From Opitutales bacterium (GTDB lineage: Bacteria > Verrucomicrobiota > Verrucomicrobiia > Opitutales > JABSRG01), in NCBI GenBank assembly GCA_028280845.1, contig JANQKZ010000038.1, forward strand, positions 186,001 through 250,000: 64,000 bases of DNA, in the 5' to 3' direction. Of the stretch, positions 50,502 through 58,958 are shown in pieces; within the stretch, counting starts at the first letter, position 1, and the number at the start of each line of letters is the position of its first letter. Below the pieces are notes generated by a model. The model was given only the letters and a program-made list of their open reading frames with translations, did no database searches and was not told the origin of the DNA. A program made the translations under genes and the position numbers.

Positions 50502-51488
50502 ATGAAAGACCCTATTCGTGTTGCTGTAACGGGGGCTGCCGGCCAGATCGGTTATGCTCTATTATTCCGGATCGCCAGTGGCGCTCTTTTTGGCAAGGAC
50601 CAACCGGTCGCTTTAAATTTAATTGAAATAGAGCCCGCCCTGGATGCCCTCAAGGGCGTGGTCATGGAGTTAGACGATTGCGCCTTTCCCCTGCTGACTG
50701 ATATCGTGGCAACGGCTGATCTCAACGAAGGCTTTAAGGACGTCAACTGGGCGCTCCTCGTCGGATCCGTACCCCGTAAAGCCGGGATGGAACGCGGTGA
50801 CCTGATCGGTATCAATGGGAAAATTTTCACCGGCCAGGGAGAAGCGATCGCTAAAAATGCAGCCGCCGACGTGCGCGTCCTCGTCGTAGGGAACCCCTGC
50901 AATACCAATGCCCTGATCGCCATGAAGAATGCGTCCGGTGTTCCCGAGAACCGCTTCTTCGCTATGACTCGCCTGGACGAAAACCGCGCCAAATCCCAGC
51001 TCGCTGCCAAAGCAGGCGTCCATGTTTCCCAGGTGTCCAATGTGGCGATCTTCGGGAACCACAGCGCAACCCAATTCCCCGACTTTTATAATGCCAAGAT
51101 CGATGGCAAAGCAGCTACAGAGGTCATCACCGACGAGGACTGGCTGAAGGACACCTTTGTCCCCACCGTTGCCAAGCGCGGTGCAGCCATCATCCAGGCT
51201 CGGGGAGCCTCCTCCGCCGCCTCTGCCGCCAACGCGGCCATCGATACCGTGGTCAGTCTGACTACCCCCACCCCTGAAGGGGACTGGACCAGTGTCGGCG
51301 TGGTCTCCGATGGCTCCTACGGCACCGAAGCCGGGTTGATCTATTCCTTCCCCGTCCGTTCCGACGGAGAAAATTGGGAAATCGTTCAAGGCCTCGAGCA
51401 AAACGAATATGGCACCGAGATGATCGCCAAAAACCTGGCTGAACTTCAGGAAGAACGTGACTTCGTCAAGGATCTCATGCCCGGCTAG
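50502..51488 (+). CDS. mdh: Malate dehydrogenase
   Basis: NAD-dependent malate/oxaloacetate interconversion in the TCA cycle. The 328-residue protein has the cytosolic-type (MDH group II) sequence: [19 protein letters not shown] (8-26), [50 protein letters not shown] and the catalytic His in [12 protein letters not shown] near 187. The Shine-Dalgarno AAGGA lies about 10 nt before ATG 50502. A strong terminator follows at 51521. The gene is likely highly expressed as a single unit. Confidence 0.97.
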
Positions 51489-51600: not shown

Positions 51601-52272
51601 CTACGGCGCTGTATAATCGTCCACCTCAAAACCCTGCATCGTATACTGCACTGGTATATCCGCCCGGCCATCAACCAGGAACAGATCCACCTTCGCATTT
51701 TCGACCGCGAGCTTCCCTTCCACCAAAACGGGCTGAAATCGCGTGCGGACTTTTACGGGCCGATCCATTTTCACATAAACGATCTGGTTCGGAGGAGGCG
51801 GTGGCGTATGGATACAGGCCCCCACCCAGGGAACCAGCAGGAATTCACTCGTATCCCCCTCGAGAATGTCCAGGGGCAGCAGATATCCGGGCATCTTGAG
51901 CTGCATTCCATCCAGCTGTTCATTCACCAAGTAGGCCGCCCGACGACGCTTTTCACGGATCTCGTCCCGCAGCGATAAAATCCAGTCAATATCCACACCT
52001 TCGGCTTCGAGTAAATCCACTGCGGCGATGTACTCCTTCATCATCTCCTCGCTAAAATCAGTCTTACCCAAGTCCCGAAGCCCGCGGATACGGGCTACAA
52101 TCCCGAGATAATAAAGCTGATCTTCAGTCAGGTCCGCGTAGGGATCGTCAAACTCCATTCCCGGAGCCAGATCGTCCCACCCAATTTCCATGACCGGCAT
52201 ATCGGACGGCATCCCGTCAATCGCATAGGCCACAGAGACAAGGAGTAACAGGAAACTGAATACAAACTTCAT
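51601..52272 (-). CDS. DUF3299 exported protein, probable partner of a metal ABC transporter
   Basis: A 223-residue protein with a signal peptide (MKFVFSFLLLLVSVAYA) when starting at ATG 52272; GTG 52296 is a less likely start. The C-terminal third has the DUF3299 hallmark MPGYLLPLDILEGDTSEFLL then VPWVGACIHTPPPPPN. The middle is helical and charged (RIRGLRDLGKTDFSEEMM). DUF3299 proteins are found beside FtsX-type ABC transporters in putative zinc-acquisition loci, which fits the divergent ABC genes here. The exact role is unknown. The 5' region shares a repeat with the ABC promoter (findings). Confidence 0.82.
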   Translation of the reverse strand: MKFVFSFLLLLVSVAYAIDGMPSDMPVMEIGWDDLAPGMEFDDPYADLTEDQLYYLGIVARIRGLRDLGKTDFSEEMMKEYIAAVDLLEAEGVDIDWILSLRDEIREKRRRAAYLVNEQLDGMQLKMPGYLLPLDILEGDTSEFLLVPWVGACIHTPPPPPNQIVYVKMDRPVKVRTRFQPVLVEGKLAVENAKVDLFLVDGRADIPVQYTMQGFEVDDYTAP

Positions 52273-52389
52273 ACAAGACTGACCACTAATCTTCACTCAT
52301 GGATGTAACCATAAAAAATATCTCAGTATGCTTGGACACCAAACCTATTTGAATGTTTTTTGAACTTTAGTGAAGTTTTAGTGTAGTTA

Positions 52390-53142
52390 GTGGTTAAGAA
52401 TCCTCGTGCCCCCAAGGTGAACCCAATTATTTCCATTTCCGACCTCCAGTTCCGCTACCACCCCGACAGCGAGCTAATCCTGAACATCGATTCCCTCGTC
52501 GTACAGCCCGGTCAATCCCTCTTCATCCAAGGCCCCAGCGGCAGTGGCAAAACCACCCTCCTCAACCTCCTCGCCGGTGTCCTTGTCCCCGTTCAAGGGG
52601 AAATTTCCCTCCTCAGCACCCAGCTCTCAACGCTTTCCGCCTCTGAGCGCGATGCCTTCCGCTCAAACCACATCGGCTTCATCTTTCAACTCTTCAACCT
52701 CATTCCCTACCTTTCGGTCATCGAAAACGTCACCCTCCCCTGCCAGTTTTCCCAAAGGCGAGCAGGTCGAACCCAATCCAGAACAGAATCTCAATCGAAA
52801 TCCAAAGCCCTCCCCCAGCGCGAGGCTATCCGTATCCTCACCCACCTGGAGATGGAGCCCTTCATCCACAGATCCGTCACCGAGCTCTCCGTCGGCCAGC
52901 AGCAGCGCGTCGCCGCCGCCCGAGCCCTTATCGGAAGCCCGGAACTGATCATTGCGGATGAACCCACCTCCAGCCTCGACGCCCACCAGCGCGACCGCTT
53001 TATCGAGCTGCTCTTTGGAGAAATCCGTCAAACCGGCAGCACCCTCATCTTTGTGAGCCATGATGCAGCCCTCGCCAAGCACTTCGACCAGGTTGTGAAC
53101 ATCAACGAACTCAACCGAGATTCTGCCCTTAAATCCCAATGA
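52390..53142 (+). CDS. ABC transporter ATP-binding protein (LolD/MacB type)
   Basis: A 250-residue ABC ATPase: Walker [17 protein letters not shown] (48-63), Q-loop Gln100 in [18 protein letters not shown], signature [15 protein letters not shown] (166-180), Walker [16 protein letters not shown]-loop [12 protein letters not shown]. It is MacB/LolD type, as expected for an FtsX-type permease. An unusual insert of about 25 charged residues ([20 protein letters not shown], 123-142) precedes the signature. Start GTG 52390 lies inside a TTAGTGG repeat; GTG 52417 would drop nine residues. It is divergent from the DUF3299 gene and lies 124 nt before the permease gene. Confidence 0.93.
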
Positions 53143-53164
53143 CCACGAATAAAAATACCCAAAG

Positions 53165-53192
53165 AAATCCGAAGTCCGAAGGTCCAAGACAC
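53165..53192. repeat. Period-7 tract between ABC ATPase and permease
   Basis: Units AAATCCG AAGTCCG AAGGTCC AAGACAC keep exact 7-nt phase, 20 nt after the ATPase stop. Confidence 0.55.
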
Positions 53193-53266
53193 TTAAGGCC
53201 CACTGAGGGTTTGTCACTAGGGCTTCCTTGGGCATTAGGGAATTTGGGTGTTTCGTCATTTTAAGA

Positions 53267-54571
53267 ATGCGCACTCTCCTCCAGCTCGCCCTTAAAAGCC
53301 TCCTCAACCGAAAGTTCACCCTCGGGTTGACCTGGCTATCCATTGGACTGTCGGTCATGCTCCTCCTCGGGGTCGAACGCCTGCGGTCGGAAGCACGGGA
53401 AAGCTTTGCCTCCACCGCCTCTGGAACTGATCTCATCGTGGGCGCCCGCGGGAGCCCTACACAGATCCTCCTCTTTTCAGTGTTTAACCTGGGATTCCCC
53501 ACCAAAAATATCGATTTCAATACCTACGTCGAATTGGCCCAACTCGACGCCACAGACTGGGTCATTCCCCTTGCGATGGGTGATTCTCATCGCGGATATC
53601 GAGTGGTGGGTACCGCGACCCATTATTTTGAGCATTTCCGAATCCGGAATCGTGAGCCGTTAATCTTTAATCAAGGCTCCGCCTTTGGCCTCGACCAAAC
53701 TTTCGACGCCGTCATTGGAGCCGAAGTCGCTCGAAAGCTAAACTATTCGATCGGTTCCGAAATTATAGTGGCCCATGGCACCGGAGATATCAGTTTTATC
53801 GAGCACGATGAACACCCATTCACCGTTACCGGAATCCTGGAACCCACGGGTACTCCGGTCGATCAGCTCATTCTCGTCCCGCTGGACGGTATCGCTGAAA
53901 TGCATCACGGCTTCTATGGCGAAGACGATCACGGGCACCACCACCATCATCACGGGCATGACCACGCCCACGATCCTTTGACAGGTGTTTTAGATGGACA
54001 TAACGGGAATACGGGAGAGGTCTCGTTGTCCGCCCTGTTGATCGGACTGGAAAACCGGGCGGCCGCTCTCTCTGTGCAGCGCTACATCAACGAGTTCCCG
54101 GATGAAGCCCTCACCGCCGTCCTTCCGGGCTTAGCGCTTCAGGACCTCTGGTCCATTCTCGGTGTCATCGAAAATACGCTCCTGCTCATTACCGGCTTCG
54201 TCGTGATCGTTGGCCTATTCGGCATGCTTACCACGCTCCTCACCAGCCTCAATGAGCGGCGCCGGGAGATGGCCATCCTCCGCTCGGTCGGCGCACGCCC
54301 GTCCACCATCTTTTCCCTGCTGGTCGGTGAAGCATGCATCATCACGGTAGCGGGCAATGCGCTCGGCTTGGCCCTTCTCTACCTCGGCCTGATGATGGGT
54401 CAGCCTATCTTACAAAGCCACATGGGCATCTATCTCCACCTCGGTCTACCGTCGGCGCATGAATGGGGGCTCATCGGGTTGATCACACTCCTCGGGCTGG
54501 GTATCGGCATTATACCCGCCTGGCGGATCTACCGCCTATCCCTCGCCGACGGAGTCACGCCGAAACTCTAA
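53267..54571 (+). CDS. FtsX/MacB-type ABC permease with polyhistidine loop
   Basis: A 434-residue permease with one N-terminal TM helix (LTWLSIGLSVMLLLG), a large periplasmic domain, then three C-terminal TM helices (starting NTLLLITGFVVIVGLFGML) as in FtsX/MacB. ATG 53267 (MRTLLQLALKSLLNRK) is preferred over the start 13 codons upstream. The periplasmic domain carries a loop MHHGFYGEDDHGHHHHHHG followed by HDHAHDP, 12 His in about 23 residues (213-235), suggesting metal binding (zinc). Together with the ATPase and the divergent DUF3299 gene this is a probable metal-import or envelope zinc system. Confidence 0.9.
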   Translation: MRTLLQLALKSLLNRKFTLGLTWLSIGLSVMLLLGVERLRSEARESFASTASGTDLIVGARGSPTQILLFSVFNLGFPTKNIDFNTYVELAQLDATDWVIPLAMGDSHRGYRVVGTATHYFEHFRIRNREPLIFNQGSAFGLDQTFDAVIGAEVARKLNYSIGSEIIVAHGTGDISFIEHDEHPFTVTGILEPTGTPVDQLILVPLDGIAEMHHGFYGEDDHGHHHHHHGHDHAHDPLTGVLDGHNGNTGEVSLSALLIGLENRAAALSVQRYINEFPDEALTAVLPGLALQDLWSILGVIENTLLLITGFVVIVGLFGMLTTLLTSLNERRREMAILRSVGARPSTIFSLLVGEACIITVAGNALGLALLYLGLMMGQPILQSHMGIYLHLGLPSAHEWGLIGLITLLGLGIGIIPAWRIYRLSLADGVTPKL

Positions 54572-54784
54572 GGCACAGTGAGATAGCGAACCACTGAAAC
54601 ACACGAAAGGCGGCTGACCTCTGAGAGAAATTATTGAGCACCCCTTGAGTGCCCTTGAGGGGTTATCAATATCCTCCTTCATTTTATATTCTCCCGCTTG
54701 AAACGGTTCCGCTGATAACTGGCCTAATTTGCTATTTTTTATTCTTAGTGGCATGGTTGTGGTTTGCTTTCCCAGAAATCTGCC

Positions 54785-55915
54785 ATGAAAACCTTCACGC
54801 GATTCCTCATTCTTACATACACATTCACCCTCGGTCCGATGTTAGTCGGCCAGTGGTCGCCTCCCGCCCCGGAACCCGATGAGTTCGACTGGATTCAGCT
54901 CAACTCCGGCGAGTGGCTCAAAGGTGAAATCCGCACGATGTACGATGAAACCATGGACTTCGATAGCGATGAACTGGGTGACCTTTCCCTTGACTTCGGA
55001 GACATCAAAGTCATTCGGACCGGAGGGGTCCAAATGGTCAATGTCGATGCAAAGGAGAAATCCTCCAGACGTGCCTTTGGCAGATTGGTTCCCCAGGGCA
55101 GTGGTGAGGTGGTCACAGGTTACGTCCGCATGGACGGGGATGAGTTTAAGATAATTCCGGAAGCAGGAGGCGGCGAAACCGTGGTCGATCGGGCCGATAT
55201 CATTTCCCTCGCAGCTGGAGAACCCCGAGAGATCAACTTCTGGGATGCCAAGGCGACTTTGGGAGCAAATTATCGATCCGGGAACACCGAACAACGCGAC
55301 ATCAACACTCAAATACGGATCAGGCGTCGCACTTCCAGCTCTCAATTTTACTTTCAATACCTGGGCAATTTCTCGGAGGCCCAGGGGATTGAAACTGCCA
55401 ATAACCACCGGGTCACTACCTACTATGACTGGTTCCTCAATCAAACCTTTTTCTGGCGCGTCGCCCAGTTGGAAGCCTTCCAGGATCCCTTCCAGAATAT
55501 TGCTCAACGTTACACGATTGGCACCGGCTTTGGTTGGCATATCATGGATACCAGCAAATTCACCTGGGATGCAACGGGGGGCCCTGCCTACCAATACCTC
55601 GAATTCGATAGTGTCACTCCTCCCAATGAACAGACCCAGTCCAACCCAGCTGCCAGTCTATCGACCAACTTCGATTACGAAGTCTCCGGTAAGGTGGACC
55701 TCATCGGAGTTTATTCCCTGATCTATGCGGGAGACGACGCGGGTGGATATAATTTCATCGCCCAGACTACTCTGGAAACGGAGCTTCTCAGCTGGTTGGA
55801 TTTTGATATCTCCTATATCTGGGATTACCGGAGCGACCCTATTCCCGACAGCAGCGGAGCCGTTCCGGAAAAGAGTGACAGCCAGCTGATTTTCAGCCTC
55901 GGCATGGATTTGTAG
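54785..55915 (+). CDS. DUF481-type outer membrane protein, copy 1
   Basis: ATG 54785 gives a 376-residue exported protein (signal MKTFTRFLILTYTFTLGPML). The N-terminal domain (about 30-150) opens with FDWIQLNSGEWLKGEIRTMY and closes with IISLAAGEPREINFW. The C-terminal half is a beta-barrel-like region: ATLGANYRSGNTEQRDINTQ (the DUF481 SGNT motif), SQFYFQYLG, YDWFLNQTFFWRVAQLEAF, and a final FSLGMDL ending in Leu, a common outer-membrane ending. DUF481 includes YdiY, a salt-induced outer membrane protein. It is followed by a paralogue, with a heptamer tract between. Confidence 0.85.
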   Translation: MKTFTRFLILTYTFTLGPMLVGQWSPPAPEPDEFDWIQLNSGEWLKGEIRTMYDETMDFDSDELGDLSLDFGDIKVIRTGGVQMVNVDAKEKSSRRAFGRLVPQGSGEVVTGYVRMDGDEFKIIPEAGGGETVVDRADIISLAAGEPREINFWDAKATLGANYRSGNTEQRDINTQIRIRRRTSSSQFYFQYLGNFSEAQGIETANNHRVTTYYDWFLNQTFFWRVAQLEAFQDPFQNIAQRYTIGTGFGWHIMDTSKFTWDATGGPAYQYLEFDSVTPPNEQTQSNPAASLSTNFDYEVSGKVDLIGVYSLIYAGDDAGGYNFIAQTTLETELLSWLDFDISYIWDYRSDPIPDSSGAVPEKSDSQLIFSLGMDL

Positions 55916-55929
55916 CGAGCGGAGCTTGC

Positions 55930-56038
55930 GGTTCAGGATGTAAGATTCGGGATTCGAGGTGCAGGGGGCGCGCGCGGCGCGTCCGTCATGGCTTCGGCGA
56001 AGGCGGATCCCGCAACTTGCACCTGCAACCTGCGTACT
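55930..56038. repeat. Two period-7 tracts between the DUF481 copies
   Basis: Tract one: GGTTCAG GATGTAA GATTCGG GATTCGA GGTGCAG (55930-55964). Tract two: CGCAACT TGCACCT GCAACCT GCGTACT (56011-56038). Both keep 7-nt phase; each has its own unit sequence. Confidence 0.65.
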
Positions 56039-56066
56039 CTACTTTGTCTCTAAACTCAAAGCTCCT

Positions 56067-57269
56067 ATGACCCTGCCTACCTTCCTGCAATCTGTCACAT
56101 TCCTGTCCGCCGTAGCCTTGCGCGTAGGCGCGATCACTTTCACCTTCACGTTCACTTCCGCCACACGAGCCCAAATCCCCGACGACGGCAAAGCTGGGTG
56201 GACTCCTCCAATCCCTGAGGTGGACGAATGGGATTGGATTCAAATGGATTCCGGGGAATGGCTCAAAGGCGAGATCCGGACGATGTACAACAACCAACTG
56301 GATTTCGAAAGTGATGAGTTCGACGAGATGATTTTGGATTTCCGGGATATTGCCTTTATTCGGAGCGGTGATGTTCAGATGGTCAATATGACCAATCGAA
56401 ACCGGAGGGACGCGTCGGGCCCTTTCCGGTTACTGAGTAGCCTCCGAGCCGTGACAGACGAAGAAGTAGTCACCGGCTTCCTGCGCATTGAAGATGGGCA
56501 GGCTCGTGTTATCCCGGAAGACGGAAGTGAGGAACGTGTCTTTCCCAAAGATGATATAATCTCCTTTGCCGCTGGAGAACCCCGAGAGATCAATTTCTGG
56601 TCGGCGAAAGTCACCTTGGGATCCAATGCTCGCCAGGGGAATGTGAACCAGGGGGATCTCAGCACGCGGGCCACGATCCGACGACGAACACCCAACTCCC
56701 AATTCTATTTTCAATATATCGGAACCTTTTCTCAAACAGAGGATGTCCAAACGGCCAACAACCACCGGGTCACCACCTACTACGACTGGTTTCTGTCCCG
56801 GGATTTCTTCTGGCGGATCGCCAACGCGGAGTACTATAAGGATCCATTTCAGAATATTGAAGCTCGGGGAACAATGGGGACGAGTTTCGGTTGGCACATC
56901 AAGGACACGGATCGCTTCGAGTGGGATGTGGCCGGGGGTCCCGCCATTCAATACCTGGTTTCCGAAAACGTGGAGCCTGGACAGGAAAAGGAGCAAACCA
57001 ATCCAGCTATCACCCTGAGCACAAACTTTGATTGGGAGTTAACCCGCCGTATCGACCTCGTGGGCAATTACTCGGTCCTTTACGCAGGGGAAACCGCGGG
57101 GGGGTATATCTTTCACTCTGATACCACCTTTGAAACCGAACTCTCCAGCTGGCTCGACCTGGATGTGTCGTTCATCCTCGACTATACCACCAACCCGGTT
57201 GCTACCAATGCCGGCACGCCGGAAAATGCGGATTTCCAAGTGATTACGAGCCTGGGAATTGATTTGTAA
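56067..57269 (+). CDS. DUF481-type outer membrane protein, copy 2 (paralogue)
   Basis: ATG 56067 (MTLPTFLQSVTFLSAVALRV) gives a 400-residue exported protein. The frame is open further upstream but that part is arginine-rich and lies over a heptamer tract. The sequence parallels copy 1 through its whole length: WDWIQMDSGEWLKGEIRTMY, DIISFAAGEPREINFWSAKV, SQFYFQYIGTFSQTEDV, TANNHRVTTYYDWFLSRDFF, TNFDWELTRRID and the end ITSLGIDL. A short acidic insertion (VIPEDGSEERVFPKDD) differs. The 3' flank after both stops is also alike (CGGAGCT), implying a tandem duplication. It probably forms an outer membrane barrel; its ligand is unknown. Confidence 0.85.
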   Translation: MTLPTFLQSVTFLSAVALRVGAITFTFTFTSATRAQIPDDGKAGWTPPIPEVDEWDWIQMDSGEWLKGEIRTMYNNQLDFESDEFDEMILDFRDIAFIRSGDVQMVNMTNRNRRDASGPFRLLSSLRAVTDEEVVTGFLRIEDGQARVIPEDGSEERVFPKDDIISFAAGEPREINFWSAKVTLGSNARQGNVNQGDLSTRATIRRRTPNSQFYFQYIGTFSQTEDVQTANNHRVTTYYDWFLSRDFFWRIANAEYYKDPFQNIEARGTMGTSFGWHIKDTDRFEWDVAGGPAIQYLVSENVEPGQEKEQTNPAITLSTNFDWELTRRIDLVGNYSVLYAGETAGGYIFHSDTTFETELSSWLDLDVSFILDYTTNPVATNAGTPENADFQVITSLGIDL

Positions 57270-57499: not shown

Positions 57500-58744
57500 C
57501 TAAAACGCTTCCCCCACACTCAGGTAGTAGATGCCCTCATCCTTTCCCCACGCATAATCCAGGCGGAGACTCACTTTATACCTCTCAGACAACACGTAGC
57601 GGAGCCCCAAACCGCCCGCAGGGAGCAGGTTATCTCCCGGACGGGTTGAAATGCCATCGCGGATCTGGCGGTCACCATTGACAATTTCCCGAAATCCGGA
57701 AATCGGGCCATAGACCTCTCCCACTCCAACAAAGCCGGCCAGGTAAACCTTCTTCATCAATTTAAAGCGATACTCTGTCTGGATGGCATACATCGACCTA
57801 TCGATGTAGCGCCCCGGAGTATACCCCCGCAAGTCGGCTCCTGTCCCAAAAATACTCAAGAGATAAAAAGGAGGACTGCCATTTACGGTTTTGTAGTAAG
57901 CCCGGGAAGCCAGGACATCCGCTTCCCGGAAGGGATGATAGTAGTTCGCGAATAACTCGTAGATTTCGGTATCAAAATCACTCCCTATTGCCTCGTTATA
58001 ACTCGTGTAAGTTAATTCAGCGTTCCAGCCCTGACGTGGAAAATTTTGATCATCCCGGGTATCATAGGTAAGGGGAATTTTTATCCCTGACGCCCAATTA
58101 TCTGTATTCAAAATATAGTTACGGTCCAGATCCTGAATGCCGGAGTCATTATCGCCGAAACGGGCAAAGGTATTAGCCCGAAACCCGATCCACCTCGCCC
58201 CCAAAAACACATTATCCCAAACCGCATACTTGGCGCCCACCAAAGCGAGACCTCCACGCTGTTTCACGTCTATGAATTCGCCTTGCTCCGGATTCGAGTA
58301 AATCCGGTAGTTCACATCCATATACCCGCCTGCTGCCGTAATGCGTATTTTGTCCTCCTTAAGATACAATTGAGAACCCGCAGCTAGGGCTTTACTTCCA
58401 TTTTCAGAGACAAAAACCCCTCCTCCCACAATGGAGGGAGGTGATTTTGCATCATCTTTATTCGGCTGAAAAAAATAACCGGTTCCCAACAGGACACTCC
58501 ACCCCAACACCGGGCTTCGGCTGGGTATCGGTACCACCAGTAGACCATCCGGCCACCAGGAAAGCACCTGGGTCTTGAGTTTCGTGTTAGGGTCAACCTC
58601 TCCCGCGGAGATGACTCCAAACGGACTGTCAATATCTACTTCCGGCAGGGCCTCCCTCCTCTCCTCCGCCCTCAAATCATTCTCCTGCGCGGCAGCTACA
58701 GGAACCAGGAGCCCAAAGAGCAGGAGATTTAAGAATGCCTTCAT
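57500..58744 (-). CDS. BamA/TamA-like surface antigen (Omp85-type) barrel protein
   Basis: ATG 58744 (MKAFLNLLLFGLLVPVAAAQ) yields a 414-residue exported protein. The body is rich in alternating beta strands with typical motifs of an Omp85 C-terminal barrel: IKIPLTYDTRDDQNFPRQGW (the barrel start TRDxxxxPxxG of BamA/TamA), GADLRGYTPGRYIDRSMYA (RGY-type L6 loop) and LLPAGGLGLRYVLSERYKVS. The C-terminus ends AF as in barrels. No POTRA domain is visible before the barrel, and only about 110 residues precede it, so it is a short barrel-only relative rather than BamA. The ORF starts further upstream but without a signal peptide there. Confidence 0.85.
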   Translation of the reverse strand: MKAFLNLLLFGLLVPVAAAQENDLRAEERREALPEVDIDSPFGVISAGEVDPNTKLKTQVLSWWPDGLLVVPIPSRSPVLGWSVLLGTGYFFQPNKDDAKSPPSIVGGGVFVSENGSKALAAGSQLYLKEDKIRITAAGGYMDVNYRIYSNPEQGEFIDVKQRGGLALVGAKYAVWDNVFLGARWIGFRANTFARFGDNDSGIQDLDRNYILNTDNWASGIKIPLTYDTRDDQNFPRQGWNAELTYTSYNEAIGSDFDTEIYELFANYYHPFREADVLASRAYYKTVNGSPPFYLLSIFGTGADLRGYTPGRYIDRSMYAIQTEYRFKLMKKVYLAGFVGVGEVYGPISGFREIVNGDRQIRDGISTRPGDNLLPAGGLGLRYVLSERYKVSLRLDYAWGKDEGIYYLSVGEAF

Positions 58745-58958
58745 CGTTATAACCCAACCACGGAACACGCAAATCTGCTCGGAAAGATCAAATCGCAAAT
58801 TCCAGGATCTATCGACCCATCCCTGGCAAAAGAAGAAATCATCAACTCCCGAGTCATCGGAAAACAAACCGCCAGGTATTTAAATTCAGGCAAATTGACC
58901 AGCCAAGAGGAATTTTAGAGAGACTGGATTATCTTATCAAGACACCCCTCAGCTCAAC

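Follow-up and report, generated by a model that had tools for sequence, protein, structure and literature searches.

The window analysed here is a stretch of 64,000 nucleotides from contig JANQKZ010000038.1 of an Opitutales bacterium (phylum Verrucomicrobiota), and the locus in question, at positions 51601-54571, holds a DUF3299 gene on the reverse strand that is divergent from genes for an ATP-binding cassette (ABC) ATPase and then an FtsX-type permease on the forward strand. An earlier note, made from the window alone, had named this same set (DUF3299, a MacB/LolD-type ATPase and an FtsX-type permease), and all three genes are present with the family matches that it gave. Specifically, the following features can be distinguished:

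51601..52272, reverse strand: zrgE-like DUF3299 gene, long form, 223 residues with a signal peptide (PF11736, E 1.6e-32)
51931..52152, reverse strand: N-terminal helical extension of the DUF3299 protein, about residues 41-114 (alignment, extension profile, helices in the model)
52273..52389, no strand: divergent promoter region, with no Zur-box-like site above chance in motif scans
52390..53142, forward strand: zrgC-like ABC ATPase of the LolD/MacB type, 250 residues, GTG start (ABC_tran, E 4.4e-30)
53267..54571, forward strand: zrgB-like permease of the FtsX/MacB type, 434 residues, 4 predicted membrane helices (FtsX, E 2.4e-17; MacB_PCD, E 2.5e-9)
53903..53971, forward strand: histidine-rich permease loop, residues 213-235, 12 His in 23 (residue counts; mostly predicted disordered)

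The permease is likely to start at the ATG at 53267 rather than at the TTG at 53228, and the DUF3299 gene is likely to start at the ATG at 52272, with a signal peptide, rather than at the GTG at 52296. Histidine accounts for 22 of the 434 permease residues, and 12 of these fall within residues 213-235, in agreement with the earlier count of 12 in about 23. When the protein was shuffled 20,000 times, the top count within any 30 residues was 10 (reached once) against the 12 observed, and the next highest cluster among the 173 stop-to-stop frames of at least 100 residues in the window has 8 histidines. The predicted model of the permease (mean predicted local distance difference test, pLDDT, 80) has the MacB/LolCDE fold, that is, one membrane helix followed by a periplasmic core domain (residues 51-286) and then three further helices, and the loop is mostly predicted to be disordered, with a pLDDT of about 45 and values below 50 throughout residues 223-249, which include most of it. 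A Foldseek search with this model returned MacB (5gko, E 6.5e-16, template modelling score by query 0.62) as well as LolCDE and HrtB, and the score against the LolC/LolE model TIGR02212 was 44 bits, against a cut-off of 362.

In sequence, the permease shares 46-50% identity with ZrgB-type permeases that adjoin DUF2796 genes in Aeromonas, in Phaeobacter and on a P. aeruginosa plasmid, and it is placed among ZrgB in a tree, where its closest row is a loop-type relative from Burkholderiales (57% identity). The ATPase, whose Walker A, signature, Walker B and H-loop motifs are all intact, is 44-55% identical to the ATPases of Zrg loci and lies under every NCBIfam cut-off in the model comparison. 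The DUF3299 protein is 48% identical over 106 residues to ZrgE of the P. aeruginosa plasmid and 39-42% identical over about 200 residues to the long forms found in loci without ZrgA; it matches the PA4066 structure 4hsp by sequence, and its model (mean pLDDT 93) has an OB-like fold with a Z of 16.2 to 4hsp over 117 residues (root-mean-square deviation 2.1). Among solved structures the only matches were PA4066 itself and OB-fold proteins, which give no clue to function. Because of these sequence identities and predicted folds, the set can be read as ZrgB, ZrgC and ZrgE, so that the connection to Zrg-like loci drawn in the earlier note is stronger than was claimed: all three genes are Zrg orthologues, and not just a similar set of domains.

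In published work, V. cholerae ZrgA (DUF2796) is described as a zinc-binding partner required for growth in low zinc, with a flexible histidine-rich loop that is dispensable in that species (PMC9820375), and zinc depletion is described as inducing all five zrg genes in V. parahaemolyticus, the small membrane protein ZrgD (DUF2607) being without a counterpart in V. fischeri and P. profundum (PMC9817125). Compared with this ZrgABCDE system of Vibrio, the window has orthologues of ZrgB, ZrgC and ZrgE, but its genome has no ZrgA, its permease carries the histidine loop, its DUF3299 protein is long, its gene order is divergent and no Zur site is recognised. Against PA4063-PA4066, the permease and ATPase are about 50% identical to the P. 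aeruginosa plasmid copy and the DUF3299 fold is that of 4hsp, but the PA4063 (ZrgA) partner is missing and the histidines sit in the permease.

The absence of ZrgA was assessed with two profile searches of the window's genome for DUF2796 (PF10986), neither of which gave a match; the first was run without a positive control, and the second covered 18 genomes and records, of which 10 were positive, including 4/4 positive-control genomes. The missing DUF2796 partner, already remarked upon in the earlier note, is therefore missing genome-wide, and since PF10986 is unmatched in the genome the locus is classed as a ZrgA-less variant rather than as ZrgABCDE. A genome search for znu genes, proposed together with that for DUF2796, found znuA on other contigs. 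At two loci of the same genome (L195:4243-5676 and L196:4813-9512), a Fur-family gene adjoins znuA, with an HHHHHH stretch, at a contig end, and what we take to be an MntR-like gene (some of the names being taken from translations) lies beside an ABC metal importer.

The same question can be asked of many genomes, and permeases were collected in three sets for this: (i) the best 80 of 579 relatives, ranked by similarity to the window, plus five plasmid loci (85 loci, ZrgB in 84); (ii) an even draw of 398 Pseudomonadota genomes, made regardless of the loop, with ZrgB in 73 (75 places), whose search centre genome was picked because it is loop-type and has two ZrgB copies; and (iii) 395 genomes from the phylum of a Desulfosediminicola locus, with ZrgB in 13. 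A locus that occurs under two numbers (L089 and L278) is counted once wherever loci are called distinct, and other duplicates between the similarity-ranked and drawn sets were kept.

In the first set, ZrgA is encoded at 72 of the 84 ZrgB loci, and all 72 have at most 4 loop histidines. The 12 loci without ZrgA divide into six with 5-16 loop histidines (L085, 16; L089, 11; L094, 10; L142, 9; L097, 6; L099, 5) and six with 1-3; a genome scan found ZrgA elsewhere in the genome for five of the latter, all but L090. The genome of L089 also has ZrgA elsewhere, and L085 was searched on its plasmid only. The second set gives a similar picture: 63 of the 73 ZrgB genomes have ZrgA and 62 of these are without a loop of at least 5 histidines, the exception being the search centre, in which one ZrgB copy has an 11-His loop without ZrgA at its locus and the other is loopless beside ZrgA. 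Eight of the ten ZrgA-less genomes have at least 5 loop histidines (the ten counts are 45, 35, 14, 13, 10, 9, 9, 7, 4 and 2); in two of these ten permeases the reading frame is interrupted within or close to the loop, with unread letters inside the loop in one of them; both were counted unmended, and with both removed the loop is found in 6/8. The association of the loop with loss of ZrgA in this set has a Fisher p of 2.9e-8 (3.8e-9 without the search centre), values that ignore kinship. In the third set, ZrgA is present in each of the 12 ZrgB genomes that were newly drawn, with 1-2 loop histidines, and the 13th, the centre of the set, is ZrgA-less with 6. An all-against-all comparison of neighbouring frames at 16 loop-type loci revealed no gene family common to most of them that might be a hidden replacement for ZrgA.

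The relation between the loop and the absence of ZrgA is a correlation, and on balance the locus is probably a form of the Zrg zinc-starvation ABC system that does without ZrgA and in which the permease loop collects the metal. More specifically, the loop would gather periplasmic zinc (or a similar divalent metal), the role of histidine-rich ZrgA elsewhere, and would pass it on to the core histidines. Among the Zrg-type permeases compared, His170, His180 and His213 are found in 159/159 and His108 in 152/159, a pattern that suggests, from the alignment, a route for metal within the periplasmic core, the loop beginning at His213. ATP hydrolysis would move the periplasmic domain by mechanotransmission, as in MacB and LolCDE, and thereby hand the metal on, and the long DUF3299 protein may be a docking partner. 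MacB-type permeases such as MacB and LolCDE transmit motion and form no channel, and for this reason a hand-over of metal within the periplasm is as likely as passage across the membrane. NosDFY was considered as a parallel for mechanotransmission with metals and set aside, the literature searched offering nothing usable on it. The suggestion in the earlier note that the loop substitutes for ZrgA thus holds in so far as loops, of 5 to 76 histidines, are nearly confined to genomes that lack ZrgA, in several separate lineages, but some ZrgA-less permeases are loopless.

MacAB-TolC and LolCDE (type VII ABC systems that work by mechanotransmission) have in common with the window the four-helix permease fold and the MacB-like periplasmic core, but the window has no neighbouring adaptor, has a histidine-rich loop and has relatives in a metal context, and, unlike in MacB, its ATPase and permease are separate genes. 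ZnuABC, a zinc importer of cluster A-I, shares a histidine-rich flexible segment thought to gather zinc, which lies in ZnuA there and in the permease here; the window permease is of the FtsX/MacB_PCD type and not of the ABC-3 type (an unrelated family), and its operon has no binding protein, znuA being on other contigs. The earlier remark that FtsX-type ABC proteins rarely import metals is generally fair, yet the FtsX/MacB type includes the characterised Zrg system.

Alternatively, the loop may sense or buffer zinc and in this way tune the transporter, as has been proposed for the loops of ZnuA and ZrgA, with another protein, for instance the long DUF3299, replacing ZrgA. In the alignment, the DUF3299 proteins of main-type ZrgA-less loci are longer at the N-terminus by about 75 residues and have a small insertion, and the short ZrgE of loci that contain ZrgA lacks this extension. 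A profile of it, built from the window and five loop loci (L085, L294, L299, L090 and L268 being outside the build), was compared with the DUF3299 proteins from 151 loci and gave 12 matches in 11 distinct loci, namely ten distinct loci without ZrgA at the locus (eight looped, and the loopless L090 and L268) and one with ZrgA, and DUF3299 is short in 128 of 129 ZrgA-bearing loci. Most loci that lack ZrgA have a long DUF3299, as the window does, and this counts in favour of the ZrgA-less reading given above. The long form in L090 and L268, which have no ZrgA of their own, fits the sensor or buffer, as does the non-essential ZrgA loop of V. cholerae (PMC9820375). Yet a tuning loop would be expected beside ZrgA too, and loops of at least 5 histidines are found at 0/72 of the ZrgA loci of the first set and in no ZrgA-paired copy of the second; moreover, three loop loci have a short DUF3299. 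We regard this alternative as somewhat unlikely.

A careful tree of 82 permeases, made with the loop columns excluded, has the loop rows scattered over several places, and parsimony requires 8 changes for the loop among the inner rows and 9 overall. A single origin of the loop permeases was rejected: holding the 14 inner rows together costs 328 in log-likelihood (approximately unbiased test, p 0.000278). The quick tree also showed a smaller main loop clade, which the careful tree did not recover, and the placement of loop types as an older grade, from a first FastTree rooting, was dropped, the base of the careful tree being unresolved. The histidine run could in principle be neutral low-complexity growth, without function, at a tolerant site, and the disorder and very variable length of the loop would agree with that, but histidines recur at one and the same site in separate lineages, in connection with loss of a zinc-binding partner, which makes this most improbable. 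Tentatively, and with more doubt than for the window itself, a second Zrg type may be proposed, in which a disordered, histidine-rich permease loop has taken over metal capture from a separate binding protein and is matched by a long DUF3299; this type would have arisen several times and would move zinc by MacB-type mechanotransmission without a free binding protein.

The neighbours and upstream regions of loop-type loci provide a context of metals. A V. cholerae Zur site, TGTTATGTTATAACA (PMC8248653), is a point of reference here; Zur-box-like palindromes lie before L294 (13/14), L287 (12), L299 (12) and L301 (11), each with p <=0.02 against shuffles, and the remaining 12 of 16 tested regions, with that of the window among them, are unremarkable. 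Matches of at least 11 occur in 36 of 72 ZrgA-type loci, and the best match at the window locus is 9/14 (p about 0.70), the palindrome being a proteobacterial one that may not suit this phylum. Among the loop-type loci, L301 neighbours CobW, L289 a cation-efflux gene and a metal repressor, L267 MerC and L299 an RND gene, and L169 is near an HMA protein. In addition, in two roseobacter loop-type loci (L085:1875-3089 and L303:673-1782) the ATPase gene is preceded by one for a biotin/lipoyl-binding, adaptor-like protein, in contrast to the other loop-type loci seen.

Those two adaptor-like genes make it a more live possibility that the complex is a MacB-like exporter, which would expel a metal-chelator complex or excess metal from the periplasm or the cell, the loop sensing or gripping the metal. 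The MacB fold of the permease, the efflux genes beside some loop-type loci and the pyochelin-cobalt export proposed for the P. aeruginosa homologue (PMC11481552) also speak for export. However, the annotated neighbours of the window genes include no MacA-type adaptor or TolC gene, zinc starvation induces zrg and zrgA is required in low zinc (PMC9817125, PMC9820375), and Zur-box-like sites precede the four loop-type loci above, so that export is considered unlikely.

The metal handled may also be another one, such as nickel, cobalt or copper. Histidine loops bind many divalent metals, and in the window's phylum a 516-residue fusion protein (L170:6372-7922, reverse strand) joins a long-type DUF3299 (E 8.6e-35) to NicO (E 4.9e-18), a nickel/cobalt family, with a histidine-rich stretch of its own; judged by its domains, this fusion ties DUF3299 to metal transport. 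The RND gene by one loop-type locus, and the cation-efflux gene with a metal repressor by another, point the same way. On the other side stand the response of the best-studied homologues to zinc and the Zur-box-like sites and CobW at loop-type loci, and a metal other than zinc thus seems distinctly unlikely.

DUF3299 genes were also observed in other settings. The gene of the L170 fusion adjoins an amidohydrolase gene, and DUF3299 is repeatedly paired with such a gene, sometimes with a porin (L097:8050-10307, L087:2503-4624, L303:7137-8567 and L170:6372-9340); these DUF3299 genes either lack an adjacent ABC permease or, where one is adjacent, are second copies. In a Sulfitobacter Zrg locus (L304:4797-5797), two consecutive DUF3299 genes follow DUF2796, the ATPase and the permease.

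Within the window's own phylum, 288 genomes were surveyed (permease matches with E up to 1e-20). PF10986 gave no match above the family cut-off and six weak ones below it, and a permease match was found in 23 genomes, DUF3299 in 24 and both in 22. In 21 of the 23 genomes the permease is of a distant type (23 rows) with at most 3 loop histidines; His180 is invariant in these rows, His170 is present in 22, His213 in 5 and His108 in none, and this distant type, being without His108 and mostly without His213, possibly has another substrate. At L025-L046, also of this phylum, the distant permease (about 29-35% identical) accompanies a divergent DUF3299 gene, without ZrgA or a histidine loop. One relative, G190, again of this phylum, has 76 histidines in a loop segment of 254 residues and the divergent gene order of the window.

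Several of these observations weigh against a metal-collecting loop that takes the place of ZrgA. The 21 phylum genomes with the distant permease have neither ZrgA nor the loop, and among Pseudomonadota there are ZrgA-less genomes with few loop histidines (2 and 4), in addition to loci L090 and L268. An independent-pairs test, made on the quick tree and not on the careful one, had four usable pairs, three for and one against (p 0.625), and because only four pairs are usable the counts tie the loop strongly to the loss of ZrgA without proving that kinship plays no part. No Zur site was found at the window locus by the palindrome scan, by comparison with the region upstream of fur-znuA or by a search for repeats (against shuffles), and with znuA in the genome the locus need not be the main route for zinc. 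Since the ZrgA loop is dispensable in V. cholerae (PMC9820375), histidine loops may be of minor importance, and deletion of the ZrgB homologue in P. aeruginosa left the zinc content unlowered, export of cobalt-pyochelin being proposed instead (PMC11481552).

As for the surroundings of the locus, none of the flanking genes is suggestive of metals. Upstream lies what we take, from its translation, to be malate dehydrogenase (50502-51488); downstream, two tandem DUF481 proteins, apparently duplicates, are encoded at 54764-57269, and after this pair an Omp85-type gene lies on the other strand (57500-58867).

The ZrgABCDE / PA4063-66 system itself is known, and what is new is the ZrgA-less form with a histidine loop in the permease; neither a ZrgA-less nor a histidine-loop form of Zrg is mentioned in the titles and abstract openings of the literature searched, a search whose scope mostly excluded subscription journals. 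Zinc supply by a MacB-type ABC complex is disputed, Zrg being read as an importer in the Vibrio papers (PMC9820375, PMC9817125) and as an exporter in the Pseudomonas paper (PMC11481552). Should the loop do the work of ZrgA, the metal would have to be handled by the permease's own periplasmic domain, and a natural variant in which the binding protein is replaced by a loop of the permease would therefore be a direct test of this dispute. A clear prediction also arises for the uncharacterised DUF3299 family, in which the long form accompanies the loss of ZrgA.

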